Source of the DNA: an uncultured Ruminococcus sp.
GTDB taxonomy: Bacteria; Bacillota; Clostridia; Oscillospirales; Acutalibacteraceae
Length of the DNA: 46,113 nt
Direction of reading: 5' to 3'
Assembly (NCBI GenBank): GCA_902766885.1
Contig: CACXFS010000017.1
Coordinates: forward strand, 1-46,113
The notes below the pieces were generated by a model, which made no database searches, was not told the origin of the DNA, and saw only the letters and a list, made by a program, of their open reading frames with translations. How positions within the stretch are numbered: position 1 is the stretch's first letter; each line of letters starts with the position of its first letter. The position numbers and the translations under genes were made by a program. Below are positions 3,421 to 46,072 of this stretch, one piece after another.

Positions 3421-6400
3421 TTAAGCTTCTACAGATTCCGTTTCAGCAGGAACATAGCTTACATTCAGAGTATTTGTTTCGGGATTATATACTAAGCTTA
3501 GCTTCATTCCCTCGCTCAAGCCCTTGATTGTAATGCTCTTTCCTCTTGAGGTGCTTGCTGAAAGTGAATAGGTTTCGGAAGTTTCGGTATCTGCGGTGAT
3601 TGTCAATGATGTGCTTGCGGCAACGCAGTTAAACTCGCTCTTAACCATATCAAACACATTACAGCTTATGTTATTTGACGAGATTGTTGTAAATTCCAGA
3701 GCGTATGTGCCGTTGTCCTGCTCTTCAAAGAATGTATCTCTGGCATCCCAAGCGTGCTCGTCTGTTGCATAATAGCACAGAACGTAGTGCTCGTTATCCT
3801 TTTCCTCGCCTGCGGGGACATAGTTTACATCTACTGTATTTGTGTCAGGGTGATAAACGAAGTTAATCTTCATTCCCTCGGTCAAGCCCTTGATTGTGAT
3901 GCTCTTGCCTCTTGATGCGCTTGCAGAGAGAAAATACGTTTCGGAAACTTCAACATCTCCTGCAATTGTAAGTGATGTGCTTGCGGCAACGCAGTTAAAC
4001 TCGTTGTTTACAAGGTCAAATACGTTACAACTAATGCTCGGAGCACTGTCGGCAACATAAGTGAATGTGTAAGTTCCGTCGTTCTTCTTTGTGAAATAAG
4101 AAGTCTTATCGTCCCAACTGTGCGTTTCTGAGTAATAGCAAAGTGCGTAGTCAGCCTCTGCGGGTTCAATAACGTCTATTGTACCGGGAGCAGGTGTGTA
4201 GTCTACCCATTTCTGAGTTGCGCTGTCATAGAGCATTCCGTTGATTGATTCGCACATAGTTGTGTCGTTTACAGCAACAAACTGAGTCTGCCATGCAGAG
4301 CCGTTGTAAGCCTGGAACTGTAATTTATCAATGTTTTCCGAATAGAATTCCTCTGCTTTGTAGGTGTATCTGAATACGGTAAGACCTCCGAATTTATCGG
4401 TTGTCTGAATCATATTTCTCTGTCCCCATACATTGTCGCCGGCATCAAAGCAGATGTTGGACTTAACAGTATATTTTGATGTCAGCCATTCTTCGGGAGC
4501 GGCAAAGTAAATTACAAGGTCTTTGTCATAGCCCTGTGTTGTTTTGCCTTTGATGTAATCAGCAATATCAGTCAGATTATCCATTGCATCTTTCAGCTCA
4601 AGATAACTCTGATAATTCTCGTCGGTATCCTCAGCAAAATTAATATCCTTATATGCTCTGTAGAGCTTTTTCAGATTCTGATACTGGTCATAGGAGCTGA
4701 AACTGTAGTAGTCAGCAAGCACCTTTTCAACCGCTGAAAGGATATTTTCATCAGCCTTTTCAATCGGGAATCTTGTGAAAAAGTCTGCAAGATATTTCTG
4801 AATGTTAGTAGCGTCAACTGCATTAACAGCTTCGTTTCCGTCAACGTCAGCTGCCTTTATCTGATCATCATCAAAAGCTTCCAATTCTGCAATATACTTC
4901 TGAACTAATGATACGTCTTTGACAGATACAATTCCGTCTTTAGTTACGTCACCATATAAGAAATTTACTGAACTTTCAGATAAATTAATGTTTGAAAGAG
5001 CCGAAATTTCGGAATTGTCTGACGAGTCTGTTATTTCATCGGGTGTGCTTTCACCTTTAACGGTTGAAGGTTCGGTTTCAACAATTTCAGCTGTAGTTTC
5101 TGTTGATTCGGGAGTTGTTTCTTCGGTAGCTGTCGGCTCTGTTGAGTCTGTCGGCTCGGTTGATTCAGACGGCTCTGTAGGAAGTTCTCCTCCGTTAAAC
5201 AGAGAAGCTGTTACGTTGTATTTTCCCGAAGTTGTTGTGCCGTCGGGAGTAAAGCAATTGTTTGTACCGTCAAGCGTAATGTCAACAGTCTGCTTTTTGT
5301 TACCTGCGTTGTTGAAAATAATATACTGGAATGACGCAGGAACTTCGGCACAATAAATATCGTTGCCGTATTCATCTGTTGAATAGTAACTGCATCCGTA
5401 GCCGGGCCATACGCAGGTAGAGGTGTCAGCATCGCTCCAACCGTAGCAGTCAACCGACTCCCACTTTGTTGTATTCACATAGTAGTATGTAACTGTTTCA
5501 ACGCCATCGGGAAGTGTTGAGCCTGTAACGGCTGTTGTTCCTGAAGTAGTTGCCTGCGTTGTTGCGTTGGTTTCTTCAATACTTGAATGTCTGCTGCCCT
5601 GCATAATGTAGGAATAAGCAGGATAGATTTTTTCATCGCAGAGGTTTGCACCGTAATAAATTACATTGCCGTCGTAAACTTCTACATAGTAGCCCTGTGA
5701 AAGACCGTCATAGAAGGTATAATCAAGCGAATGGGAACTTGAGCTCGGGTGAGTCGGTCCTGCAACAGAAGGATTGTGAATCATATTGCAGGCTGTGCCG
5801 TCTTCGTTTGAGTAGTTATATCCCATATTGAAGTCTTCGTGTGTGTGGCCCGACATCCAGATTATGTTGGGATACTTGTCCATGAGCGCCTTGAATCTGA
5901 CGGTTGTAATATTAGAAGTTGACAGATGAGCCTTATAATATGGATTATCCATATCATCGCCTGCGCCATATCCGTTTATAGGTGAGTGCTGAATTAAGTA
6001 AATGTTATATCCTTTGCCGTAATTTTCAGCCAAGAGCTTTGAAACCCATTCAAGCTGTTCTTCGGAAAATTCATCGCAGGAGCTCGGGTCTGAAGAATTT
6101 TCGAGAGCCATAAAGATGAACATATCACCTGTTGTCGGCTCTGTAACGTAATAATACGGCTTGTTAGCATCGTAGTTTTCCTTTGTATTGTCTGTACCCG
6201 ACGCTCTTACGAATTCCTTGTTACCGCTCTGAACGCCCGTTCTCATATCGTGATTTCCGTTTGACTCGTAAACGGGATTGTCGTAATCGGAGTCAGCAAG
6301 AATCTGCTCGTAAATGTCCCATTCCTTTTTCGGGCCTGATGCGTTTGTCACGCTGTCGCCCGAAGTTACGATAAAGTCAGTACCCATATCGCTTGCATAT

Positions 6401-6948
6401 TTCAGAGCAGCTTCCCAGTGCTTGCTTGCGTTAACGTAAAAACCGCCTGCATCAATATGTATGTCGGAATATGAATTAAATGTGTAGAGTGAATCTTCGG
6501 GTGAGTAAGGCAGCTGCTTGTTTTCGGGAACGTCATACACCGAATAAGCGTCTGCTACGCTCGGATACTCGGCAAAATTACCTGTATCGTCTGCCTTGAC
6601 AGCAATAATTTTCTTAGCGTCGGCAGGAATTGCTGTGTGGTAATCAAACTCGAATGTTCCTGTCTCTCCGGCAGCAAGAGTCATTGAGTCGATTTCGTAA
6701 TAACCCTCAAGAGCTTTTTCGTCATCAGCCCAATAAAGGTTGTACTTGCCCTCATCAGCGGGAGTAAACGTGATTGTACCCTCGGCATATCCGGGAGTAT
6801 CAGCGTCAGTACCCGTGAACTGATAAGCGATTGCAGAATTATTTTCTGCTGTGTATGCCGCTGCCGACATAACAGTTGTGCTTGTGAGCAGGCACAAGCA
6901 GAGTAAACTTGATAAAATAGATTTAAGTAAATGCTTCTTTTTAATCAA
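3421..6948 (-). CDS. Secreted calcineurin-like metallophosphoesterase with CBM-like domain, dockerin and two C-terminal repeat modules
   Basis: About 1175 residues. I prefer the TTG at 6948 as start because AAAGGA sits eight bases before it; the ATG at 6957 lies directly against that site. Order of parts: signal peptide (to about 32); beta-rich domain; calcineurin-fold phosphoesterase with SDIHID (D162, H164), GD (197-198), GNHD (231-234), IQH (H321) and GHTH (367-370), a complete two-metal site; a tryptophan-rich domain with YYYVNTTKW and WPGYGCSYYS (about 487-569) like starch-binding CBM26-type modules; a Thr/Pro/Glu-rich linker (589-647); a type I dockerin with both calcium loops (664-725); an alpha-helical segment; then two tandem modules of about 110 residues (about 934-1046 and 1055-1170), each with CNVF and ASRGKSITIKGL-like blocks. 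The dockerin predicts docking to a cohesin scaffold. The substrate is unknown. Confidence 0.9.
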   Translation of the reverse strand: MIKKKHLLKSILSSLLCLCLLTSTTVMSAAAYTAENNSAIAYQFTGTDADTPGYAEGTITFTPADEGKYNLYWADDEKALEGYYEIDSMTLAAGETGTFEFDYHTAIPADAKKIIAVKADDTGNFAEYPSVADAYSVYDVPENKQLPYSPEDSLYTFNSYSDIHIDAGGFYVNASKHWEAALKYASDMGTDFIVTSGDSVTNASGPKKEWDIYEQILADSDYDNPVYESNGNHDMRTGVQSGNKEFVRASGTDNTKENYDANKPYYYVTEPTTGDMFIFMALENSSDPSSCDEFSEEQLEWVSKLLAENYGKGYNIYLIQHSPINGYGAGDDMDNPYYKAHLSTSNITTVRFKALMDKYPNIIWMSGHTHEDFNMGYNYSNEDGTACNMIHNPSVAGPTHPSSSSHSLDYTFYDGLSQGYYVEVYDGNVIYYGANLCDEKIYPAYSYIMQGSRHSSIEETNATTQATTSGTTAVTGSTLPDGVETVTYYYVNTTKWESVDCYGWSDADTSTCVWPGYGCSYYSTDEYGNDIYCAEVPASFQYIIFNNAGNKKQTVDITLDGTNNCFTPDGTTTSGKYNVTASLFNGGELPTEPSESTEPTDSTEPTATEETTPESTETTAEIVETEPSTVKGESTPDEITDSSDNSEISALSNINLSESSVNFLYGDVTKDGIVSVKDVSLVQKYIAELEAFDDDQIKAADVDGNEAVNAVDATNIQKYLADFFTRFPIEKADENILSAVEKVLADYYSFSSYDQYQNLKKLYRAYKDINFAEDTDENYQSYLELKDAMDNLTDIADYIKGKTTQGYDKDLVIYFAAPEEWLTSKYTVKSNICFDAGDNVWGQRNMIQTTDKFGGLTVFRYTYKAEEFYSENIDKLQFQAYNGSAWQTQFVAVNDTTMCESINGMLYDSATQKWVDYTPAPGTIDVIEPAEADYALCYYSETHSWDDKTSYFTKKNDGTYTFTYVADSAPSISCNVFDLVNNEFNCVAASTSLTIAGDVEVSETYFLSASASRGKSITIKGLTEGMKINFVYHPDTNTVDVNYVPAGEEKDNEHYVLCYYATDEHAWDARDTFFEEQDNGTYALEFTTISSNNISCNVFDMVKSEFNCVAASTSLTITADTETSETYSLSASTSRGKSITIKGLSEGMKLSLVYNPETNTLNVSYVPAETESVEA

Positions 6949-7157
6949 GATTATCATCCTTTCTTGTTAAAATAAATAATATTTCCGTTTCCAATTTATA
7001 ATTATTATATATTTTTCCTTTGCAAATTCATAGTCGAAAAGAGTGTAAAAGATTGTTGTTTTTCGTGTTAGCTTTCGCTAATCCACAACGAAAGTCACAA
7101 AACCAGCCGTTAATCATTCATAATACATCTTATACATCATTGTCATTAATTGTTTTA

Positions 7158-33902: not shown

Positions 33903-36719
33903 TTATTCGTCGGAAAATGCTGAAATACGAATATGCTCGTCGCTCTCGTTTAATGCAAGCAACTGTTCTTTTGTAGCTACAATAAAGATACAACCCTGAA
34001 AATCATCATAATCATAGCGTGATGTGTTACTAAAATAATTCTTAATAATTCTGTTGCGCTGGGGATCAAAAGAAAAGCTTTCTTTATCAAAATCATATAA
34101 AATAATTACTGCATTGAACTTCTGATTTGGACTTGCATTATTTACGCTATCTGCAAGATAGCCGTCAACAAATCCGTATTCAGATCCACTATTTGATGCG
34201 AAATAGTCAATACAATAGCCATTCGGGTCTTCGTTAAGTGCAACAAGCTGTGCCTTGGTTGCGCACACTTTCAGTTCATTGTATTCACTACTATAAAGAT
34301 ACTTGTCCGGATTACCGAGATATTTATAGAGAAAATCGTTGACATCAATATCATCACTAAAAGTGATACTTACAAGAAATTCATCCGTATCAGAAGCATT
34401 TTCCATATCAGCAAGCAGCTGTTCGCTTACAATTCCCCATTTTGGCTCATATACAGGGTATGATATGTAAACGCTGTCACCGTAACCGTTTGCAATATTC
34501 AGTAATGTTTCCTTTGGTAATGATGTATCAATATATCCTTTTTCAGCGTCATAGGTATAATAAAAATCATCAGACAGATATTTATTGATTATACTGTCAG
34601 CCAATGCGTCATTGTTGTCACTCAGAAGTGAAATTCTGACATGGTAAAAATAGTAATCAATTCCAAAGCGTTCGTCATCCTTGATTTCATTGGCAATTTC
34701 AGATGAAATATTTGATGGAAGTCGGTTTTTAAAATACTCCCCAAGCTTGGAAGATAAGCCTGCAAGGTATTTCTGAATATCTGTTGCATCGTCAATACTG
34801 ATGTTCTTATCTTCTGTAACGTCAGCAGTCTTGAGCTGGGAGCTTTCAAACTGTATGGTGTCCGCAATAAATTTCTGAATCAAGGTTACATCAGTAATAC
34901 TTATTTCACCGTTGAGGTCTGCATCACCCAAAATAAATTCTGCCTGAACATTGTCAGGATAGAACTGCTCACTCAGCCATGCAGTTCTGCCCTGCATCCA
35001 TTCAACTGCATAGTCAAACATTCCGTTAAAGTTATTATTATATGTCTTTTTAGCTGTTGTCATCATCTTGTGAGTATCTGAATCATATTCTGCTGTTGTC
35101 AGCTTTGTATGGTCAGCAATCCAGCTGTTACTTGTTTTTAACGCCCAGCCGCTCTGATAGTTCATTTCCGCACTATCTGCGATAAGGCTGTAATACTGTT
35201 TGTATGACTTCATAATACTGTTATCCGTTTTGCCGAAGAAATCGTTGAGTGCAGGAACAAAATCATCAAACCATATCTGCGGTATTGCATTAAGAATATA
35301 ATCATTCTTTGAAATACAGGCTATTAAATTGTATGAGCCGTCATAACTAAACTTGTATTTACACCACCAGCCGGTATATTCTTCGTAATCGTCAACAAGC
35401 ATAGACTGAAGTTCCTCGCTGACGCCTTTGGCATTACCGAGTGAATTGTAATAATCCCATACAGGCGAGCCAAAGAATTTATACGTACCGTTTTCATCCT
35501 GTTTCCAGGTAAAGAATAGGCTCGAAACGCCTGAATCCCAATTTTTACCGATTTCATTTATAAGATACAGCTTTGCAACAGAATCAACGTCTGCAATCTC
35601 TGAAATATCTTTATAACCGGATACAGCAAAATAAAAATTATTGAATTTTTTCTTTACATATGCCTTAACTTCATTATATCCTATATCGCCTTCATTAAGT
35701 TCAGGTGATTTAATTGTAACTTTTATTGAGTCAGCACAGGTTACATAATAATCCTCACCGTCTGTTGCATTAGGGTCAATTTCGCATACAAATGGAAAAT
35801 CGGTATTCACCGTGCCGTCTTCATTAAGATATGCCTCATCATCAATATCGTTAATCAGGCTGTTTTTGCCAACCTCGATTTTCTCGCACATTTGATAGGA
35901 ACCCCAGTAAAATCCATTGACATAAAAATCAACATAACGTGAATCGGAAGCATATGGCATACCTACAGCATCTGAAAGGTCATAGAGAAATCTGTTTCTT
36001 GAAAGAGAATCATCCTGATAATTTGCAAGGATTGAATATTTTTTGCCCTTACTCATTCCTGCAATGCTTACATTATCACTGTATGTAATATTGTACGACT
36101 TTTTAGGCATTGTCCAGGTTGTATTACCTCTGCCTTTAATCTTTTTGATTGATGTATTGTCAATGCTTCCGTCAGGCTCTACGATTGCTCCTGTTGCCGC
36201 AGCACTTATCGATTTATCCTTGTTAAGATAGGTCATAAGATTTGTGCCGTTGCCGTCTGCATCTGAATTATTGATATATATTCCTGCCTCTGCGTTCGAT
36301 TTCATAAATTTCAGGGTATAGGTTTTGTTGTCGGCAGTAACACTGTAGCTTTTGCCGACTTCATAGTTAATCTGAGCTGTTTCGCCTGCCGCAATTTCCG
36401 TGCCGTTTACAGTTACAGGCTCAGAATAGGCATTGTAAATATCAGCCTTGCTGTTATCAGCTGATACCGGCAAAAAGAAGTATTTTACTGATGAATTGGT
36501 CTCTTTTAAATTTGTAGTATGCTCACTCTGCCACGACTGCCACGCCTCGGTGTCAGCGGAATTAAGAACACCGTGAGCATAAAGAGCCTGTGTGGTGTCA
36601 AACGATATTGTTGTTCCGTCTGATACACTAACAGCATTGTCTTCTATCGCTCCGACTGATACAGCAGCCGTACTCATCATAAGCAAAACAATAAGAATGG
36701 ACGCTAAGATTCTTTTCAT
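33903..36719 (-). CDS. Secreted CotH-kinase-domain protein with internal dockerin
   Basis: This 938-residue exported protein starts at the ATG at 36719 (MKRILAS), nine bases after AAAGGAG. It has a signal peptide to about 24. A region with an Ig-like segment (YAYSEPVTVNGTEI) is followed by a CotH kinase domain (about 130-560) with KGRGNTTW (about 195) and KKSYNITY, CEKIEVG, EIDPN, and the NEIGKNWDSGVSS...SPVWDYYNSLG block that ends the active-site region of CotH proteins. A complete type I dockerin (DADLNGEISITDVTL and DVTEDKNISIDDATD, about 592-655) lies between it and a 260-residue C-terminal domain of unknown type, in which the motif ATKxQLxALNEx occurs twice (about 830 and 915). CotH proteins are found in Ruminococcus cellulosomes. 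It sits behind a copied sigma promoter. Confidence 0.92.
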   Translation of the reverse strand: MKRILASILIVLLMMSTAAVSVGAIEDNAVSVSDGTTISFDTTQALYAHGVLNSADTEAWQSWQSEHTTNLKETNSSVKYFFLPVSADNSKADIYNAYSEPVTVNGTEIAAGETAQINYEVGKSYSVTADNKTYTLKFMKSNAEAGIYINNSDADGNGTNLMTYLNKDKSISAAATGAIVEPDGSIDNTSIKKIKGRGNTTWTMPKKSYNITYSDNVSIAGMSKGKKYSILANYQDDSLSRNRFLYDLSDAVGMPYASDSRYVDFYVNGFYWGSYQMCEKIEVGKNSLINDIDDEAYLNEDGTVNTDFPFVCEIDPNATDGEDYYVTCADSIKVTIKSPELNEGDIGYNEVKAYVKKKFNNFYFAVSGYKDISEIADVDSVAKLYLINEIGKNWDSGVSSLFFTWKQDENGTYKFFGSPVWDYYNSLGNAKGVSEELQSMLVDDYEEYTGWWCKYKFSYDGSYNLIACISKNDYILNAIPQIWFDDFVPALNDFFGKTDNSIMKSYKQYYSLIADSAEMNYQSGWALKTSNSWIADHTKLTTAEYDSDTHKMMTTAKKTYNNNFNGMFDYAVEWMQGRTAWLSEQFYPDNVQAEFILGDADLNGEISITDVTLIQKFIADTIQFESSQLKTADVTEDKNISIDDATDIQKYLAGLSSKLGEYFKNRLPSNISSEIANEIKDDERFGIDYYFYHVRISLLSDNNDALADSIINKYLSDDFYYTYDAEKGYIDTSLPKETLLNIANGYGDSVYISYPVYEPKWGIVSEQLLADMENASDTDEFLVSITFSDDIDVNDFLYKYLGNPDKYLYSSEYNELKVCATKAQLVALNEDPNGYCIDYFASNSGSEYGFVDGYLADSVNNASPNQKFNAVIILYDFDKESFSFDPQRNRIIKNYFSNTSRYDYDDFQGCIFIVATKEQLLALNESDEHIRISAFSDE

Positions 36720-36783
36720 TTTAACCTCTCCTTTAAAAATAGATGTTCGCACATATTTATTTATATATTGAAACATTTATATA

Positions 36784-37071: not shown

Positions 37072-38271
37072 TTACTTATTCATATATTTTTTGTTAAGAT
37101 TCATAACCTTTTCAATAACCATATTTCTGACCGACTCAGGCTCGATAACCTCTACCCTGTCGCTGTACTGCAACGCCCAGTTCACCATAGCGTACGGACT
37201 GCACTTCACTTCAACTATATCGTCAAAGGGCTCGGTTTCTTCTGTTCTTATGTATTTGAATGTATCGCCGAACCAATCGTACATAAAGGTGTAATCAGCA
37301 CGCAAAGGCTTTGTCGGATTATTATTTTCTTTCGGACTTTTAACTCTTAATTTAATCTTTACAGGATTATCAAATGACATATTCAGGTGAGATAGCTGAA
37401 AATCCTCGCTCCACGACTGAGGAAGATTATCAACCCTCCACTTGCTGACTGACGGAATTCCTTTGATATTATGCTTTTCATCACGTTCGGGAATTTCTAT
37501 TTCTGTCATCAAATCAATGCGCCAGATTGACATATTTCTGATAGTTTTTTCGCTGAATACAAGCTCTTTACACGCAAGCAGATAGTACCTTCCGCCGCTT
37601 GCAACAATATAATACGGACTGACGGTATCTTTCTTATTATGATTAAGCACAAGTTTTTTATCTTTGTCATAGCCGTTAAAAGTAAAGCTGATTTGCACAC
37701 CATCATCAATCGCACGCTGAATCGTCAGCAGATTTTTACGCAGAGTTTCTCTGTCGGCAAGCACGGGCTCTTTTACCCTGCAAATATTCTTTGCGCCTTT
37801 TTTATAGAATTTAGTTGTCAGGTTTTTTTCAATCTTTTCAATTATCCTGTTCGCCGACTCGGTATCTACTGTTTTTGAAAACAAAATGCTTTCAATCATA
37901 CTGTTAATTTCGTCATACGAGAAAGTGTGATTATAATACAGTCCTCTGATTCTCATTGTCTGATTAGCGTCATCATCTTCAGAGTCGCTTTCATCAAGAG
38001 TACTATCGCCGTACTTTTTGATAAAATCTTTAAAAACAAGCTTTCATTCGTCCTCAGGTTTTACGCCGTATTCATCAGAATTCATAGCCATAGCCATTTT
38101 TACAATCGTGTCGTTGTAGGTTTCCTTGTCACCTAAATACGGCTCAATTTCAGGCTCCCTTCGCAGAGCCGCCTGTGTAACGGTATGCTCGCTGTCGGAA
38201 TTTACTTTTAAATATTCCAGTATCTTAAACGCTCTTTCAAGCTTTGAATATCTTTCTTTTTCTTCTTTCAC
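37072..38271 (-). pseudogene. WYL-domain transcriptional regulator interrupted by an in-frame TGA
   Basis: One continuous frame of 400 codons starts at the GTG at 38271 with GGAGG seven bases upstream. It is interrupted only by a TGA at 38046-38044 after codon 75. The first part (KLERAFKILEYLKVNSDSEHTVTQAALRR) is the winged helix-turn-helix DNA-binding domain. After the stop the same frame runs KLVFKDFIKKYGDSTLDESDSEDDD and then the WYL ligand-binding domain with SPYYIVASGGRYYLLA, the FSEKTIRNMSIWRIDLM block and a C-terminal WCX-like domain. Protein-like sequence on both sides, in frame, means a recent nonsense mutation, an assembly error or recoding. The later ATG at 37956 lacks a ribosome site. 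WYL regulators often govern defence systems. It faces the 199-residue protein gene across a palindrome. Confidence 0.8.
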
Positions 38272-38370
38272 GTTCTTTCCTCCGTTTCTGAATTTATTGT
38301 ACCATAAATTTGCTCGGTTTTTTCCTGCTTTTTACAAAATTTCAATCAAAATATTTTTTAAAATTAAAGT

Positions 38371-38392
38371 TTAAGCGGAAATTTCCGCCTAA
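38371..38392. promoter_or_regulatory. 22-bp near-perfect palindrome between WYL regulator and the divergent gene
   Basis: The core GCGGAAATTTCCGC (38375-38388) is a perfect palindrome. It is flanked by TTA and TAA arms with a single mismatched pair. A TATAAT stands at 38401-38406, so the palindrome covers the -35 position of the promoter for the plus-strand gene starting at 38451. This is where a repressor dimer such as the WYL protein would bind. Confidence 0.7.
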
Positions 38393-38400
38393 CTGATTGA

Positions 38401-38406
38401 TATAAT
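38401..38406 (+). promoter_or_regulatory. -10 element of the 199-residue protein gene
   Basis: TATAAT is 45 bases before the start codon, and its -35 region is covered by the palindrome at 38371-38392. No good TTGACA-like hexamer is seen 17 bases upstream. Confidence 0.5.
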
Positions 38407-38450
38407 AATCAATGTCAGCTGAACAAACGATATTTAAAAGGAGAATTGCT

Positions 38451-39050
38451 ATGGAAAGAAGAACTATTACAACATCAGACACGTCAAATCAATTCAACAA
38501 AATTATGCAGACCAGATGTAATGAAATGATTATCAATGATATACTGAACCCGCTGCTCAGGATAATATATTCGCTTAGAGAAAGCGATAATTTCAATAAC
38601 ATTCCCGGCACCGACGTCGGTGAAGGAACCGCTTGGGAATATTACAGAAGCGAATTCGATAATATTTACCGAGCTATCAACAGCAACATATTCCTTTCTG
38701 AATATGAATACAGGGAAATTTACAAAACAGTACAGGGTATTCATTCATTTACAAGAAAATTTTCAGGAGCTGACGGCTTGCAGGACTTTTTCTTTGAAGC
38801 AAACGAGAATCTGCATTACTACACATTTGCATTCAGCGAGGAAGGAAAACGCTGTAAGAATTATTTAAAAATCCGTCAGGATAATGCACCGACTGCCGAA
38901 GAATACAAAGCGTCTGATGTTTACCGGGCAAAAAAAGCTGTGAGAAATGCTGAATTAAATCTACGATTTGAAGAGGAGGATTTTTTTGTTGAAGAGCTTG
39001 CTTATGCCGTCAGAGTAATATTTATAAACATTATCAGTAAAAATTATTAA
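38451..39050 (+). CDS. 199-residue protein of unknown function under the palindrome promoter
   Basis: A well-formed gene: ATG at 38451 (MERRTITTSDTSNQF) with AAAAGGAG at normal distance. The product is soluble, mainly helical, rich in Glu, Asn, Tyr and Phe, with no signal peptide or membrane helix. Recognisable tracts are LRESDNFNNIPGTDVGEGTAWEYYRSEFDN, a middle helical segment EYREIYKTVQGIHSFTRKFSG and an acidic end NLRFEEEDFFVEELAYAVRVIF. I know no family for it. It is divergent from the WYL regulator and convergent with the helicase operon (130 bases apart, terminator between). It may be an effector or accessory of that island, or an independent gene controlled by WYL. Nothing in the sequence proves either. 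Confidence 0.75.
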   Translation: MERRTITTSDTSNQFNKIMQTRCNEMIINDILNPLLRIIYSLRESDNFNNIPGTDVGEGTAWEYYRSEFDNIYRAINSNIFLSEYEYREIYKTVQGIHSFTRKFSGADGLQDFFFEANENLHYYTFAFSEEGKRCKNYLKIRQDNAPTAEEYKASDVYRAKKAVRNAELNLRFEEEDFFVEELAYAVRVIFINIISKNY

Positions 39051-39074: not shown

Positions 39075-39107
39075 CAAAAACGGCACAGGGATTTTCCTTG
39101 TGCCGTT
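39075..39107 (-). terminator. Terminator of the DUF6361-PLD-helicase operon
   Basis: AACGGCACA (39107-39099 on the minus strand) pairs with TGTGCCGTT (39087-39079), followed by a T run of about five and GTTATA. It lies about 75 bases past the helicase stop. The plus-strand T run is weak, so it mainly serves the helicase operon. Confidence 0.7.
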
Positions 39108-39180: not shown

Positions 39181-42100
39181 TTACTCTGTTTTTGATTTAT
39201 AGTACGGACTCAGATTGATAAACAGCTTTTTCAAATCCTCTGTATCATCGCAGTTTTGGAAAATATATTCCAACAGTTCCTCCTGTCTTGCCTGTCCCAG
39301 CGTCAAACGATACAAAGATAGGATTTTTATAAGCCGTTCATAAAACAACTCGTCACGGCTGAACGGATACATAGGAACAATTCGCTCTATCTTTACCATA
39401 TCCTCGCTCTTTGTCAGTCCCCAAAACGGAGTCAGGTCGGAGCCTTTTCCGCCGTTTTCCTCTTTTGATGCCTCAATAAACATTTCCTTCCATACGTTTG
39501 ACTTAAAGGTAATGTTTCCATACCGTTTTGCCACATTCTGACGTATAGCAAGACACTCAAATCTGTTGATTCGACCTTCTCTCTGCTCCAAATCTATCGG
39601 ATTTGATGGGAGGTTCCAATGTACAATCCTGCGGCAGTAGTAGTGAAAATCCAAGCCTTCCTGCCCAATAGAAGTAGAAGCAAGCACAAACGGTCTGAAC
39701 GGTGAATTAAACGCATTTCTTATACTCTTTTTTCTGTCTGCATCTTTTTCTTTACCGTCGCCTTTCGTAAATGCCACGGCAAAATGAGAGCGGAGCGGAG
39801 TTGCAAGCTCTTTGCCGTTTGACACCCTTGCCTTGAAGCCGTTAAATGTATCTACAGAATAAATCGTAGTTCGCACATCCATTGAGCTGATTATTGTGTA
39901 ATGAAGATTTCCTATCAGATTGCTGTCAGAATCCAGTCCGTTAGTTATCAAATGAGCATACTCATCAAACATTGCCTGAATATTTCCATGCTTACAGTAT
40001 GTGAGCACATTTCTCCAGTGTGCATCGTCGGATTTTTTGCCGCAGGCCAACTCAACTGTTGCAGTTGATTCCGGTGTATTCATACGATTTATAAAAATCT
40101 TTGCAACCTGACTCGGATAATAACTCGGATAACAGCTCGGACCGTAAGTTCTTTTTTTACTGTACATACGATATGTTCTGTTGATTACAACTGCGGGAGA
40201 AGATATTGCCATATCCGTTAAAACGTCAAGTAAATCGTCAGGCTTCTTACCCAAGTTTTGTGCTCTGCTGTTCTTAGTGTCTGTGTACAGCTCCTTAAGG
40301 CAATTAAGATGAGTCCGAAAGCCCTTTTGTCGTTTGGTTGATTCAGTCTCATCAGGAAATGAAGCCAACGCCTCATCACTGTTAAGCCACTTTTCCACAT
40401 ATGCTGTACTGTCTAACAGCAGAGGTGCTATGTAATACCAACGCTTGTCCTGTGCACCTGAAGATACCATTTCAAATCCTGTCAGTTTTTCGGAAATTTT
40501 AGCTTTTATCTCCTTTTCAATTTCCTTTAGTGTCAGCCCTCTGTTCAGGCAATCAATCGGGTTATAGCACTTTGTAAGAAACAGGGACGGATACATCAGA
40601 CAAAACAGCGTCATACCGCCCGGAATTCCGCCTCTCACCGAGAAATTCAGTCTGGATGAAGGATACCTTTTTTCTCCCGCATAGAAATAGTGGGCTTGCT
40701 TATCTTCGTTTGATTTTGCGAGTTTTCCGACTGTTCTGCGTTCAGTTTCGTATGAAAGCAGACCTGCCAGCATACGGGGAACCATTTCCCACGATGAAAA
40801 AACTAAGGTTTTTGTAAAATCTCCTGAGTTTTTATATACTCCCTGCGGCTGATAATAAGGTTTTGACGGAGGAATCCAAAGCAGTAATTCTGCATTATCC
40901 TTAAATACGTGTGACATTACACGCTCAAGCCGTGCGTTATTGTTTGGAATTTTTTCATATCTGTCCAAAGTTCTTCTTTTTAGCCACAGGCAATCCTTAT
41001 TTATCTTATTTATCTCATCAGGATGTCCTTTAAAATGTCTTTCAATATACCGTTTAACACGATAATTTCGCATAAATGACATAAGATACGGAGAGGATTT
41101 GACATAATCAACGGGCATATTAAACGGAGCGCCAATATCCTCTAGTAACTTTTGAGCCTGAAGATACGATTTAATATCACGGTCGGAAACCTCTAAAGGC
41201 TTGTAAACATCCGTATCATCAATTATATCCGCACTTTCCGCTGCCGAAATTCTCTCTGTTCTGCAAACGTGCTTATACATAGCGTCTTCCGCTGTGTTTT
41301 TGGCTGAAATTACAGTGGTATCTCCGCTTGTAAGCTCCTTAAGCTTAACCGAATAATTGCTCCATACCGTTTTAAATTCTCTATTCTCCTCGTCCGAAAT
41401 ATTCAAAAAATCCATTACAGCAAAGAATTCGTGATAATGATCATATTCCGGCATTTCATCTATTTCCTCGAGGGTAGAATACATTTTATAGGGAGTTGCA
41501 GACAAAAGCAGCATACGCACCCTGTCTGAATTAAAAAACTTATTCGTAAGCATACCTGTTTCCGATTCCGGATCGGCGTTAATCAGGTACTTAAAACGCT
41601 GAAACTCGTCCATAATAACAAGGTCAGGCTCGAGCTTTTCCAAGCTGATTTTAGCAAAAATCGTCCTCAGCTTTCCTATTATTGAATTATTATTTTGCTT
41701 TTCAAATCCTCCGTGTTTTATGTATTTGCACATAGATATAACCGTTTCCATAACCGTACTTTCTTCATCACACGGACGGTTAAGCTCATCATTCACCGTT
41801 TCGAGCATATAGGCAAGGTATTTTCCGCTGGAAATTCTGTCACATTCCGAAACCTTTTGTTCATAATAATCCTTCTCCCTGCCCCAAGCGCTGATTGCAT
41901 TGCCTTTCATTACTTCTTCAAGTTCGTCAATATAATTTTCAAGTTGCGGAATACGCCGCAGTACAGCAAACATCAACGCTCTTTCGGAAACAATTCCTGC
42001 ACCTGACGTCATTCTGAATGAGGTTTCGGGGGTTAACGGAATGAGCTGAATGTATCTGCTTAATAAATCAGCGTCATTTTCCTGTAAGAAAATATTTAAG

Positions 42101-42444
42101 TGCTGCATAGAAAGACGGGAAGAATTTGTGCTTTCCGTCTTTAAATCATTTGAAATTTTCAGCTTTTTCAGGTTCTGTTCTGCAATAGCGGCATTTGAGC
42201 AGATATAAACGACTTTTACAAGTTCGTCATCGTTCTCCTTCTGTATTTTTGCAAGTTTAGCGATAGTACCTCGGGCAATTAGTGTTTTCCCCAGTCCCAC
42301 CTCGTCTGAAACCAATACTCTCATTTGTCCTGCACGATACAGTTGGTCAATACGATTAACTGTTGCCCTTTGAAAGTCTTTCAGTCCTGACATTATTGTC
42401 TTTTCAATTTTATCCAGTTGATTGGCAACATTTACCTCTGCCAT
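39181..42444 (-). CDS. SF2/SNF2-like helicase of a PLD-DUF6361 operon
   Basis: This is a 1087-residue helicase-like ATPase. Motif I is DEVGLGKT (47-54), as in SNF2 and DISARM-type helicases. Motif II is DEFQ (279-282). Motif III is SATPYK (315-320). The C-terminal RecA domain has LVFSSWE (about 565), then LASTSIGQEGLDFHYYCRRIVHWNLPSNPIDLEQREGRINRF (about 945-985), which holds motifs V and VI with the arginine finger QREGRINR. A 220-residue insertion lies between motifs I and II and another large insertion lies between motif III and the C-terminal RecA domain, so it is not a simple remodeller. No nuclease or methylase motif is seen. It shares one base with the PLD gene stop and is the last gene of the operon. 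It probably moves along DNA or RNA to help the PLD protein act. Likely a defence helicase; family unnamed to me. Confidence 0.85.
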   Translation of the reverse strand: MAEVNVANQLDKIEKTIMSGLKDFQRATVNRIDQLYRAGQMRVLVSDEVGLGKTLIARGTIAKLAKIQKENDDELVKVVYICSNAAIAEQNLKKLKISNDLKTESTNSSRLSMQHLNIFLQENDADLLSRYIQLIPLTPETSFRMTSGAGIVSERALMFAVLRRIPQLENYIDELEEVMKGNAISAWGREKDYYEQKVSECDRISSGKYLAYMLETVNDELNRPCDEESTVMETVISMCKYIKHGGFEKQNNNSIIGKLRTIFAKISLEKLEPDLVIMDEFQRFKYLINADPESETGMLTNKFFNSDRVRMLLLSATPYKMYSTLEEIDEMPEYDHYHEFFAVMDFLNISDEENREFKTVWSNYSVKLKELTSGDTTVISAKNTAEDAMYKHVCRTERISAAESADIIDDTDVYKPLEVSDRDIKSYLQAQKLLEDIGAPFNMPVDYVKSSPYLMSFMRNYRVKRYIERHFKGHPDEINKINKDCLWLKRRTLDRYEKIPNNNARLERVMSHVFKDNAELLLWIPPSKPYYQPQGVYKNSGDFTKTLVFSSWEMVPRMLAGLLSYETERRTVGKLAKSNEDKQAHYFYAGEKRYPSSRLNFSVRGGIPGGMTLFCLMYPSLFLTKCYNPIDCLNRGLTLKEIEKEIKAKISEKLTGFEMVSSGAQDKRWYYIAPLLLDSTAYVEKWLNSDEALASFPDETESTKRQKGFRTHLNCLKELYTDTKNSRAQNLGKKPDDLLDVLTDMAISSPAVVINRTYRMYSKKRTYGPSCYPSYYPSQVAKIFINRMNTPESTATVELACGKKSDDAHWRNVLTYCKHGNIQAMFDEYAHLITNGLDSDSNLIGNLHYTIISSMDVRTTIYSVDTFNGFKARVSNGKELATPLRSHFAVAFTKGDGKEKDADRKKSIRNAFNSPFRPFVLASTSIGQEGLDFHYYCRRIVHWNLPSNPIDLEQREGRINRFECLAIRQNVAKRYGNITFKSNVWKEMFIEASKEENGGKGSDLTPFWGLTKSEDMVKIERIVPMYPFSRDELFYERLIKILSLYRLTLGQARQEELLEYIFQNCDDTEDLKKLFINLSPYYKSKTE

Positions 42445-44273
42445 TACAGCTTCACCGCTTTCTTAAACGTATTGTACAGCTTTTCAAATTCTTCTGGGAC
42501 GACTCCGTCTGAGGAAACTGCTTTGATAAGATAATCTATTTCCTTAAATCTTTCGGGAGAGGCAGACATAGTTTGCAGCATTTTTTCATACAGCGGAGGG
42601 ATTTGTGCTGATTTATGAGTCTTTGTTTCATTTGTCATTTCATTATGTACGTCATTTTCTAATGCACTGATAATATAATTATCACCAAGTAAAAAAGCAA
42701 TGTACCTGTAAAAGCAGTCCTCATCCTTTACAACGCTTTTAACTACGGCGTTTTCTCTTTCGTCAGGCAGACCTTCCGTAGGAATAATTATTATTCTGCT
42801 TACTGTCCGTTTGCCGTCGGTAACCGAAATCTTATAGAACTGAGATAACTGAGTAAGATTCAGCGACTTAAACAGAACTGTATCTTTGAGCGGTTCTGTT
42901 TTGTTGGACAGCAGAGGTGATATATTCACATCGTAATCACCTTTCTCGAAATATTGAAAGACAACACACAAATCGTAATATTCGCCGTTTGGTACAACTG
43001 CTGCGCTTGGATTCATTCGGTTTAAATCCTTTATATAACCGTCGAGCTGATTTTCCTTTTCGCTTTCCTCGTCCTCGAAAAAATTATCGTTTAGATACAC
43101 CTCCATAAACGGGTTAGCAGGCTCATCCTCCGAACCGTTAAAAAGTGACTCTGATAATTTTGCTGAATTCAGGTATCTGTTTTTGCTCTTGAGCAATATC
43201 ATAAACTCAACATTTCCCGTAATTGCATTATGAGAAGCGTTGAGCGAACCGATATAAAGGTAAGAATCGGAATATTTGCGAACCATAAACATTTTGGCGT
43301 GTATATCCTGCTGTTGTATCTGCGTCTGATTTTCCGAAATTGCGGATTCACCGTCTATAATCTCATCTTTTATTTTAAATATTCTGAAATTTGAACAGTC
43401 GTTTGGCTTTAGTTTTCCCAGCGACATTGCTCTTGTAAACAGCATACAATCAGCTTTACCGATTTTTTTGCTTCTGTCATTAAATTCCTTGATTACCGAA
43501 TTTGAAAGGAACGGTGACATTATCAGTATTTCGTTAAAAGAATCTTTAAACAAAGGCTTAAACGGCTCGTCATTGATAGAATGAAAACCTCCTCTGCTGC
43601 TCTTTATTCCGAGCGGCAAGAACTCAAAATCATAAAATTCCTGCGAATTAAGCTCAAAATGCACATTCGGAAGCTCTCTGACTATTGCACGAATTGCCTT
43701 TTTCTTTGCCTTGCCGTTTTCATCTTGTGTAAGACTTTCCGAAAGATAGTTGATAAAGTCAATTACAGGAGCATTTTTTGTTGTTTTTTCACTGCTAACC
43801 CTTCCGTCCATACAAAATGTCACATCCCAACTTCTGTCAAAGGTGAGATTGCGTGACAATACAACGACACGGTAAAGCGGTGTTTTTTGTGAATCCACAT
43901 ACTTTATTAACCAGAATTTCGGATGAAATGAAGGATACTTAGCTATTCCCCTTCTTTTTGTCGTGCTAACCTGAAACACAATTTTTTCAAGCAGAATGTA
44001 GAGAGGCGTTATCTTCTCAGGACTATGTATCTGACCGCCCTCGCAAAATAAAGCAACTTTGTCACCGGTAGCTCTCAATGCTTCAAGCAGGCATATCGGA
44101 TTTTTCATCAACTCACTGTCCGTATCTTCGGATAATCCCAACGCAATCGAAACTCCTGTTAATGCATCCAAATCCAGAGAATATGTAGTTCCAATTGCAA
44201 ACTCCGGTTTAAATCCTGCCGGAGGAGCAATAACCTGACCGTAATCTAATCTGTCAATATTCGGATTAAGCAT
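42444..44273 (-). CDS. Two-HKD phospholipase-D-fold protein (nuclease-like)
   Basis: This protein has 609 residues from the ATG at 44273 (MLNPNIDRL), nine bases after GGAGG that lies within the previous gene. The alternative GTG 18 bases upstream overlaps that site. It has two HKD half-sites. The first is SFHPKFWLIKY with H117 and K119, then VVLSRNLTF (S140, N142). The second is DIHAKMFMV with H325 and K327, then YIGSLNAS (S343, N345, S347). This bilobal arrangement is that of PLD-family phosphodiesterases such as nucleases, including DISARM DrmC-like proteins. No signal peptide is present, so it acts in the cytoplasm. The first lobe is less canonical (SRN rather than GSxN). The last third (about 390-600) is of unknown type. 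It overlaps DUF6361 by eight bases and touches the helicase start. Confidence 0.85.
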   Translation of the reverse strand: MLNPNIDRLDYGQVIAPPAGFKPEFAIGTTYSLDLDALTGVSIALGLSEDTDSELMKNPICLLEALRATGDKVALFCEGGQIHSPEKITPLYILLEKIVFQVSTTKRRGIAKYPSFHPKFWLIKYVDSQKTPLYRVVVLSRNLTFDRSWDVTFCMDGRVSSEKTTKNAPVIDFINYLSESLTQDENGKAKKKAIRAIVRELPNVHFELNSQEFYDFEFLPLGIKSSRGGFHSINDEPFKPLFKDSFNEILIMSPFLSNSVIKEFNDRSKKIGKADCMLFTRAMSLGKLKPNDCSNFRIFKIKDEIIDGESAISENQTQIQQQDIHAKMFMVRKYSDSYLYIGSLNASHNAITGNVEFMILLKSKNRYLNSAKLSESLFNGSEDEPANPFMEVYLNDNFFEDEESEKENQLDGYIKDLNRMNPSAAVVPNGEYYDLCVVFQYFEKGDYDVNISPLLSNKTEPLKDTVLFKSLNLTQLSQFYKISVTDGKRTVSRIIIIPTEGLPDERENAVVKSVVKDEDCFYRYIAFLLGDNYIISALENDVHNEMTNETKTHKSAQIPPLYEKMLQTMSASPERFKEIDYLIKAVSSDGVVPEEFEKLYNTFKKAVKL

Positions 44274-45474
44274 CGTTTGTATCCTCCGCACTCATAATAT
44301 CATTTACTATTGTCTTTGCTTTTTCAAAACGATAGTCCAGTTCTTCTCCGCCATACCATTTATCGTCTTCCGATTCACCTGGGTGAGTCGTTTTTGCTCT
44401 GTTTGTACCCTTTAACTGCACTTCCCTTGAAATAATGCATTTCTTAAGTCCGTCAATATCTCCTGCAAGCATAAGCTGTTGTGCTTGCTTTAAAAATCTG
44501 CGAAGCAAGGGATTGTTAAATATTTGAAGCCGTTCCATAATAAAGTCGATATCAAGTGCGGCTATTCTTGTATATTCTTGTTTTTGCCTCTCAAATTTTA
44601 CATTTGCAAGCTCATTTTTAGCATCAGATATTATTACATTAAAAACAGTACGAATTGCATAGATAAAATCAGAAAACTGTATCGCAAGAAAATAGAAGTC
44701 TTTGATATTTTCGGGGAACAATCCAATAATTGAATCTAAGTTCTGAAAAGTTTTACAGTCAAGAAATTCCTTTATATTATTTTTTAGTACAAAGCCGAGC
44801 ATACTGTCTTTACAAGTAGCTGCAATCTGTTCTCTCAGGAATGCCGCCTCCTGAGAAGTGAGCGATATGGAAAAATCATCCTTCCAAGTTTTTTCATATG
44901 TAGGCAATTTCCAGAATTGCCTGCTGAACAAATCACCGGCATTCTTGTCGTCACACTCGTTTTCTTCGGCGTTATCATTTCGGTTTCCGAGTTTATTTAA
45001 TGTAGCTTTTCGTGCTTTCATAGAACAAGAAGTCCTTACATATTCTGACAAAGACATATTTCCGCCGGTAAAAATGCCGTATCGCCTTAAGCCCGACCAA
45101 TAAATTTCTGACGGAGTTCTTTTTACCCACTTTCCGTTTTGCAAAGAGCGTTTTCCGATTATGCCGCCCTCGTCGCAGTCTTGCTCTAACAAAATTTCTC
45201 CGCATTCTTTCTCACGCTCATCCAACTGCCTGAATATCTTTACAGGGTTAGTTTCAGGCGACAGCTCTAAATCCTTTAAGACATACGGAACTGCAAAAAA
45301 GTATTTTGCCCTTGTCTGGATAGTAGACGTACCGGGGAAAAATATATTTGAAAATCCATCCCTTATCGGTGCAATACCCAGTTCATCAAGAGTACCTTTT
45401 TCTGACAATAATTCCAGAACATTTAAAACCTTAATTCTTTCCGATTTTGAAAAATCAATCCATCCTAATTGCAT
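44266..45474 (-). CDS. DUF6361-family protein
   Basis: This 402-residue soluble protein starts at the ATG at 45474 (MQLGWIDFSKSERIKVL), six or seven bases after AGGTG. The N-terminal block (GWIDFSKSERIKVLNVLELLSEKGTLDELGIAPIRDGFSNIFFPGTSTIQTRAKYFFAVPYVL) is what I associate with DUF6361, a family of unknown function. A helical middle and C-terminus follow, without membrane segments or recognisable enzyme motifs. It is the promoter-proximal gene and overlaps the PLD gene by eight bases; PLD then touches the helicase. Such overlap means one co-translated complex. A helper or target-recognition role in a defence complex is inferred only from context. I am fairly but not fully sure of the DUF number. 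Confidence 0.75.
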   Translation of the reverse strand: MQLGWIDFSKSERIKVLNVLELLSEKGTLDELGIAPIRDGFSNIFFPGTSTIQTRAKYFFAVPYVLKDLELSPETNPVKIFRQLDEREKECGEILLEQDCDEGGIIGKRSLQNGKWVKRTPSEIYWSGLRRYGIFTGGNMSLSEYVRTSCSMKARKATLNKLGNRNDNAEENECDDKNAGDLFSRQFWKLPTYEKTWKDDFSISLTSQEAAFLREQIAATCKDSMLGFVLKNNIKEFLDCKTFQNLDSIIGLFPENIKDFYFLAIQFSDFIYAIRTVFNVIISDAKNELANVKFERQKQEYTRIAALDIDFIMERLQIFNNPLLRRFLKQAQQLMLAGDIDGLKKCIISREVQLKGTNRAKTTHPGESEDDKWYGGEELDYRFEKAKTIVNDIMSAEDTNDA

Positions 45475-46072
45475 TTTTATCACCTAAATATCCACCTGTT
45501 TAGCGGAGCATTTTCCATTATTCTTCATAAGACAAACATTCCTGTCGGTACATAGGTAAAAGCTTTTTCCTCAATCTCTTTTGTTGTGCTTCAAACTTAT
45601 AACTTGAAAATTTAAGAAAGAACGAGCATACTGCAAAAACAGGCTTATATCATTTGTCGTTTTAAACAAAACAAATCAAAAACATACTGTAATTATCTAT
45701 ATTTTAACATAAATCTACACATTATTCAATTGCTCATCTGTTATATTTCATAAAACTTTACTAAATCTCTAAAAAACAGATAAACAGCATAAATCATAAA
45801 ATCTAAATAAAAACAGGCGAATACAAAAATAACGGACTTTCTCAAAATTGAGAAAGTCCGCATTTTTACTTGCTTTTTAAGTGATTTATTTATCCAGTGA
45901 CTTCATTGTCGGGATTGCGTTGCGGTTATGATATTACTCTCAATAAGTCTTGATACATCGGTGTGAAGCGGTGCATCAAAACTTCCATTTTACGCAAATC
46001 TTCGCAAGTCAAAATAACTCTTGTTACGATTGGCGTAAGAATTGGCGTAAATGACGCAAACTACAATCGGTG
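45475..46072. other. AT-rich intergenic region upstream of the DUF6361 operon
   Basis: No credible gene is seen. It must hold the operon promoter on the minus strand but I could not fix it. A minus-strand frame of about 43 codons without a start (TGA-bounded, ending at the TAA at 45520-45518, tail KLLPMYRQECLSYEE) may be a gene remnant. A second open frame of about 38 codons (EDLRKMEVLMHRFTPMYQDLL) lies near 45950-46060. A direct repeat ATTGGCGTAA occurs at 46029-46038 and 46041-46050. The terminator is listed separately. Confidence 0.4.
45833..45867. terminator. Bidirectional terminator at the outer edge of the defence operon
   Basis: CGGACTTTCTC (45833-45843) pairs with GAGAAAGTCCG (45850-45860). 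CATTTTT follows on the plus strand and TTATTTTTG on the minus strand. It separates the DUF6361 operon from the gene ending at 46073. Confidence 0.8.

Follow-up and report, generated by a model that had tools for sequence, protein, structure and literature searches.

A probable Azaca (ZacA-ZacB-ZacC) anti-phage operon in an uncultured Ruminococcus

The defence system Azaca (ZacABC) reportedly originates from Millman et al. 2022, and ZacA and ZacB are presumably among its subunits, as also follows from the common naming of the PADLOC models. PMC12278908 counts Azaca as a non-restriction defence system whose helicase, of superfamily (SF) 1/2, is ZacC, and PMC10952713 assigns a PLD-like domain to the system, citing Millman et al. 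2022. Two other described systems come close: DISARM is defined, in PMC9142583, by DrmA, DrmB and DrmC plus a methylase, and the Hachiman helicase is presented in PMC12278908 as sensing damaged DNA and releasing its nuclease on all DNA. Here we compare with these systems a three-gene locus on contig CACXFS010000017.1 of an uncultured Ruminococcus sp. (assembly GCA_902766885.1), the whole 46,113 nucleotides of which are called the window. The three genes almost certainly constitute an intact Azaca operon with a role in anti-phage defence, a conclusion carried by the identity of the three proteins, the operon layout and the conservation of both the trio and its catalytic residues:

44266 to 45474, minus strand: zacA, a DUF6361 protein of 402 amino acids, predicted all-helical (PADLOC ZacA, Pfam DUF6361, AlphaFold2)
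42444 to 44273, minus strand: zacB, a PLD-superfamily protein of 609 amino acids with two HxK...N half-sites in one chain (PADLOC ZacB, Foldseek)
39181 to 42444, minus strand: zacC, an SF2 helicase-like ATPase of 1087 amino acids (PADLOC ZacC, ResIII and Helicase_C domains)

Against PADLOC-DB, ZacA matches the ZacA model at 6.9e-90 (profile positions 3-393 of 396), ZacB the ZacB model at 9.5e-150 with 498.2 bits (1-582 of 586) and ZacC the ZacC model at E=0 with 1034.8 bits (6-1017 of 1019), the ZacA searches having been run with a 405-residue form that starts at GTG 45483. The ZacA model is matched in none of 14 control genomes. The ZacB model alone is matched in 5 of these 14, so that it is not specific by itself; it is also matched by all 67 aligned ZacB sequences.

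The three open reading frames contain no internal stops, jointly span 39181-45474 and overlap in series, zacA and zacB by 8 bases and zacB and zacC by 1 base. A shared terminator had been proposed together with these overlaps, and a hairpin is indeed present at 39079-39107. The initiation codons chosen from sequence fit those of the relatives as well, Met1 of ZacB being invariant in 67 sequences; zacA starts at an ATG after AGGTG, giving 402 amino acids, and zacB at an ATG after GGAGG, both of these being ribosome-binding-like sites.

45481 to 45485, minus strand: AGGTG, ribosome-binding-like site of zacA (from the sequence)
39079 to 39107, no strand assigned: terminator-like hairpin between zacC and a convergent plus-strand gene (consensus match only)

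The inverted repeat at 39079-39107 begins 73 bases beyond the zacC stop and is followed on the minus strand by TTTTTGTTAT. Since the pattern scan returned this hairpin on the plus strand only, it may also serve the convergent plus-strand gene at 38412-39050. The highest 19-residue hydropathy averages of the three Zac proteins (1.3, 1.1 and 1.3) are in line with the cytoplasmic location proposed for the PLD protein. A second hairpin, upstream of zacA at 45833-45860, has 12 perfect pairs and is flanked by T-runs. Its exact sequence is unique in the genome, and it is probably the terminator of an upstream gene beyond the contig end.

To assess how far the trio is conserved, a 10-sequence ZacA alignment was scanned over genome contigs of 84,980 species, yielding 490 stretches, 433 of which were confirmed; co-occurrence was counted in the best 80 of these 433. 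Among the 63 relatives with at least 5200 nucleotides after zacA, 62 have both other genes downstream in the same orientation, in the order A-B-C, the exception (L086) having a 144-residue zacB and no zacC. In the 17 relatives with less than 5200 nucleotides after zacA, zacB was found in 16 and zacC in 9. The overlap between zacA and zacB is exactly 8 nucleotides in 35 of the 62 relatives. A further five plasmids and one "phage" scaffold all encode ZacA and ZacC, and five of these six records ZacB (tblastn, 1e-4); the ZacB of the sixth (L016) was detected at 1e-3. Some relatives have broken genes, namely zacA with two internal stops in L013 and one each in L004 and L045, and zacB with one internal stop in L083 and truncated in L081, which reflects decay or sequencing error.

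Azaca hosts include Bacteroidota, Proteobacteria, Halobacteria and Methanobrevibacter. The plasmid collection contains 39 records with a match to ZacA; 19 come from Cronobacter, and in 25 the match spans at least 80% of the protein. Closer to the Ruminococcus locus, ZacA was found in 1 of 161 genomes of the genus (its own) and in 8 of 391 genomes of the class, its own included (six strong matches, two weak), and ZacB in 1 of 59 genomes of kin (again its own); the patchy presence of ZacA in genus and class fits an accessory gene. A fragment of 67 codons, about 58% identical to ZacA, lies at 1498-1701 on the minus strand of L010, possibly as a remnant or at a contig edge. In a ZacA tree of 68 rows, the three archaeal copies (L040, L046 and L069, two of them from Methanobrevibacter) form one group (99/91) nested in a supported set of 30 rows (99/95) comprising 21 Bacillota and a mixed remainder; the exact branch adjoining the archaeal group is weakly supported. 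The position of this group inside a set of mostly gut Bacillota suggests transfer between gut or rumen bacteria and methanogens, a reading that carries a contamination caveat, as many rows are metagenome bins.

The assignment of the first protein to a DUF6361-like family holds, PF19888 being found in ZacA at E=1.1e-22. Its AlphaFold2 model is all-helical (mean pLDDT 85.3) and has no match at E<=0.001 in either PDB (best 2.7) or BFVD (best 0.78). In the alignment used for conservation (the window and 62 of 78 loci), W8 and D10 are invariant; both lie within the first 32 residues, which are modelled at low confidence.

ZacB was aligned in 67 sequences (the window and 66 of 68 full-length loci), in which the following residues were located:

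43917 to 43925, minus strand: first half-site, H117-P-K119, with H and K invariant in 67 of 67
43848 to 43850, minus strand: N142 of the first half-site, invariant in 67 of 67
43293 to 43301, minus strand: second half-site, H325-A-K327, with H and K invariant in 67 of 67
43239 to 43241, minus strand: N345 of the second half-site (in GSxN), invariant in 67 of 67
43206 to 43208, minus strand: E356, invariant in 67 of 67

An Asp at position K+5 is absent from both motifs in all 67 sequences. Consequently, the two HKD motifs that the sequence-only reading had assigned to this protein should read as two HxK...N motifs, the form also taken by the motifs of Tdp1. Pfam detects one PLD domain in ZacB, just under the cut-off. 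The predicted model (mean pLDDT 85.8) gave 82 Foldseek matches at E<=0.001, and among the 50 listed Tdp1 comes top (2.2e-08), together with PLD3 (1.2e-07), phospholipase D, phosphatidylserine synthase and polyphosphate kinase. PLD enzymes cleave phosphodiesters via phosphohistidine, and the likeness of the ZacB model to two-domain PLD-type proteins supports a single active site that would be formed from both half-sites of one chain.

The 1087-residue helicase carries the motifs read from the sequence, and these were placed on an alignment of 37 ZacC sequences (the window, 33 of 54 full-length loci and 3 plasmid copies):

42283 to 42306, minus strand: motif I (Walker A) DEVGLGKT, residues 47-54, all except L51 invariant in 37 of 37
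41599 to 41610, minus strand: motif II DEFQ, residues 279-282, invariant in 37 of 37
41485 to 41502, minus strand: motif III SATPYK, residues 315-320, all except Y319 invariant in 37 of 37
39562 to 39585, minus strand: motif VI QREGRINR, residues 954-961, with Q954, R955, E956, G957, R958 and R961 invariant in 37 of 37

SF2 motors move on nucleic acid using ATP. Pfam finds ResIII and Helicase_C domains in ZacC and no family above cut-off in the stretch of roughly 570 residues that separates motif III from the second helicase domain; an MmeI_TRD match (E=0.018) is below cut-off and was not used. The nearest non-Zac families are PDC-M27C (best, 7.6e-21), DrmD, DpdE and RapA, from which ZacC would be of the SNF2 type.

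The surroundings of the relatives' copies were examined for further signs of a defence function. From 270 genes of at least 150 amino acids within 3 kilobases of Azaca, 113 were hand-picked; by best single PADLOC model at 1e-15, and counting the best 25 of 155 models, these include 6 type I restriction enzymes, 4 type IV restriction enzymes, 4 PDC-S02 and 3 WYL matches. The far set, 113 of 247 genes further out, includes 9 type I methyltransferases and 9 specificity subunits (best 25 of 222 models), so that the restriction association extends over about 10 kilobases. This far set had been intended as a control; being equally rich in defence genes, it shows the extent of the islands and not the background. 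The background was instead taken from the 27 other window genes of at least 120 amino acids, a small set not matched by taxon; 2 of 27 reach 1e-15, one as a cross-match to GlgB and the other with WYL. The check that the sequence-only reading had called for, co-occurrence of the three genes and their clustering with defence genes, is supported by the ordered trio in 62 of 63 relatives and by restriction genes often lying nearby, and the anti-phage role is supported indirectly by the conserved trio, its patchy presence, these neighbours and the catalogue match.

Individual loci illustrate the variety of these settings. On the Haliscomenobacter plasmid pHALHY01 (L012, 7474-21098), Azaca is embedded in the operon of a type I restriction system, with the methylase and specificity (M/S) genes on one side and the R gene on the other, and in Mesorhizobium it adjoins AbiE genes. 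No restriction operon is annotated directly beside Azaca in Cronobacter pESA3 or Halomarina; an integrase precedes it in the former and an HNH endonuclease in the latter. Record MT835621.1 (L011, 1-24343), labelled Bacteriophage sp., encodes a CHAP/lysozyme-like protein, Azaca, an ADP-ribosylglycohydrolase and a Y-family polymerase; its zacA begins 11 nucleotides past the HsdR gene, and its type I restriction system has an integrase gene among its subunits. This record looks like a conjugative or other mobile element and not a phage. A viral origin of Azaca was set aside: the IMG/VR pattern scan gave 15 candidate stretches and no relative among them, and the single "phage" record, which carries a type I restriction system, looks like a mobile element. 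We likewise discarded the idea that Azaca depends on such a system: 6 of the 113 nearest genes match the best single type I restriction-enzyme model, and a search of the Ruminococcus genome itself for PF11867, a family of type I R subunits, found no member.

In the window, zacC is followed by a plus-strand gene for a 212-residue protein of unrecognised family (38412-39050) and then by a WYL gene on the minus strand (37072 to about 38271). The same pair, on opposite strands, occurs at window 37072-39050 and at L110 1993-5417, and is present in 4 of 60 genomes of the genus, the Ruminococcus genome included. In one of these genomes (G029) the pair has a tyrosine integrase and a MobL relaxase as neighbours, and the DNA match between that genome and the window ends at the end of the 212-residue gene (window 39034), the 3' end of zacC lying 131 bases beyond. 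This suggests a mobile or variable site, of which only one edge can be seen. The window WYL gene matches a 400-residue relative end to end in one frame at 87.5% identity; as its open frame is 323 residues long, an in-frame stop is apparently present in the N-terminal part, and the gene may be decaying. The WYL protein was considered as an Azaca regulator, WYL models being matched by 3 of the 113 nearest genes, but we rejected it given the opposite-strand gene between it and zacC, its apparent interruption, and the presence of window-WYL relatives in only 2 of 86 Azaca loci searched. Further away, a 957-residue CotH-domain protein with a dockerin domain is encoded at 33903-36776 on the minus strand, and a second dockerin protein at 3421-6957; together they would point to a Ruminococcus-like host, probably within Clostridia.

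Several points weigh against an intact Azaca operon acting as proposed here. The contig end (46113) lies 639 bases upstream of zacA, so that a further upstream gene is possible; the co-occurrence counts describe the closer relatives, the other 353 confirmed ones being left out; and none of the 27 other window genes matches a defence system gene at 1e-15 besides the WYL match. By query length, ZacB reaches only modest Foldseek TM-scores (0.29-0.39 among the 50 matches listed), which cannot show whether the protein is a DNA nuclease or acts on lipids, on polyphosphate or in end processing. The mechanism of Azaca is given as unknown in PMC12926258 and PMC10482375, and no published one appeared among the papers listed in searches of an open-access library.

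The sequence-only reading had regarded the trio as an undescribed system unless it matched an already named one. Annotation alone does look blank, with nothing found on DUF6361 in an open-access literature search, no NCBIfam match above cut-offs for ZacA and none at all for ZacB; yet the trio matches ZacA, ZacB and ZacC over nearly the full profiles, and Azaca is named in several papers. The claim of novelty is therefore refuted, and a system unrelated to any named one is scarcely credible, while the underlying observation is confirmed and the proposed function is reasonable. We consider a DISARM-like or Dpd-like variant, a helicase and PLD nuclease with parts missing, just as improbable. The matches of ZacC to PDC-M27C, DrmD, DrmA and DpdE would favour such a variant, as would the weak contacts of two of the 67 ZacB relatives with DrmC and of two with DpdK, but the ZacC matches are short, most of them confined to some 60 residues in the second helicase domain, and ZacB scores 14.8 bits on the DrmC model versus 498.2 on its own. 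As far as the contig reaches, that is up to 639 bases upstream of zacA, we agree with the sequence-only reading that this is not DISARM: neither DrmB (DUF1998) nor the methylase DrmM was found in the trio or, at 1e-15, in the 27 other window genes (for DrmB in ZacC, among 25 of 27 matches listed). Mko models of the Mokosh system do not appear among the ZacA and ZacB matches or among the 25 of 27 ZacC matches listed.

As to how Azaca works, the most likely mechanism, which we put forward tentatively, is that ZacC is a DNA-engaging motor and licenses ZacB, a phosphodiesterase, while ZacA serves as adaptor or sensor. The proteins would be co-produced through translational coupling and act as one complex, in which ZacC would be an SNF2/SF2-type motor loading on the DNA ends or replication intermediates of the invader. 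ZacB would be a PLD-superfamily phosphodiesterase with one active site made of the two HxK...N half-sites, cutting the engaged DNA by a phosphohistidine chemistry that is probably metal-independent, and ZacA may be a helical adaptor bridging motor and nuclease, or the trigger sensor. As the unit has no methylase, self-protection or discrimination would operate via DNA state, ends or a phage trigger and not via modification. The roles of nuclease for ZacB and motor for ZacC, already proposed from the sequence, are plausible from motifs and fold; that of ZacA is a guess, its predicted fold having no match. It is quite possible that Azaca, instead of cutting phage DNA selectively, destroys the DNA of the whole cell or causes abortive infection in another way, as a helicase and presumed nuclease with no methylase resemble Hachiman. 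This is an analogy only, however: HamA belongs to DUF1837 and HamB is Ski2-like, in contrast to the PLD-like ZacB and to ZacC, whose family matches place it nearer to DrmD, DpdE and RapA. It seems unlikely that ZacB is mainly an end-processing enzyme, as Tdp1 or PLD3, and not an endonuclease. The HxK...N motifs lacking Asp at K+5 in 67 of 67 sequences would be its signature, and Tdp1 is the top fold match, followed closely by the reported 5' exonuclease PLD3; yet phospholipase D, phosphatidylserine synthase and polyphosphate kinase are not separated from these by fold scores, and the only PDB sequence match, a weak one, is the nuclease NucT (E=0.048). Still more doubtful is a role of Azaca in DNA-end surveillance, in which a Tdp1/PLD3-like HKN ZacB would process or unblock ends presented by ZacC, possibly including protein-capped phage ends, under the gating of a new all-helical ZacA fold.

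With this locus one more host is known for a defence system of sparse distribution; if the trio had not already carried a name, this evidence would have marked it as a strong new candidate. Possibly useful beyond this are the testable residues (the two HxK...N half-sites, E356 and K53 of ZacC), the lack of the HKD Asp, the ZacA fold, for which neither the PDB nor the viral models gave a significant counterpart, and the methanogen copies grouping among those of gut bacteria. With Tdp1, PLD3 and bacterial PLD enzymes, ZacB shares the two-domain fold and HxK...N half-sites in one chain, but it has about 200 extra C-terminal residues and sits in a defence operon. DISARM has in common with the locus a helicase and a PLD-family protein in one operon; it differs in that ZacB is a 609-residue protein with two half-sites, and the matches to Drm models are local. 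Hachiman (HamAB) also pairs a helicase with a second protein as presumed nuclease, with no methylase, and may work alike, although its helicase subfamily and nuclease are other ones and ZacA is extra in Azaca. Azaca itself agrees in all three proteins, which match its models nearly end to end, and in the order A-B-C; the locus is a new instance, in another host, of an already known system, and no difference of substance from it was found.

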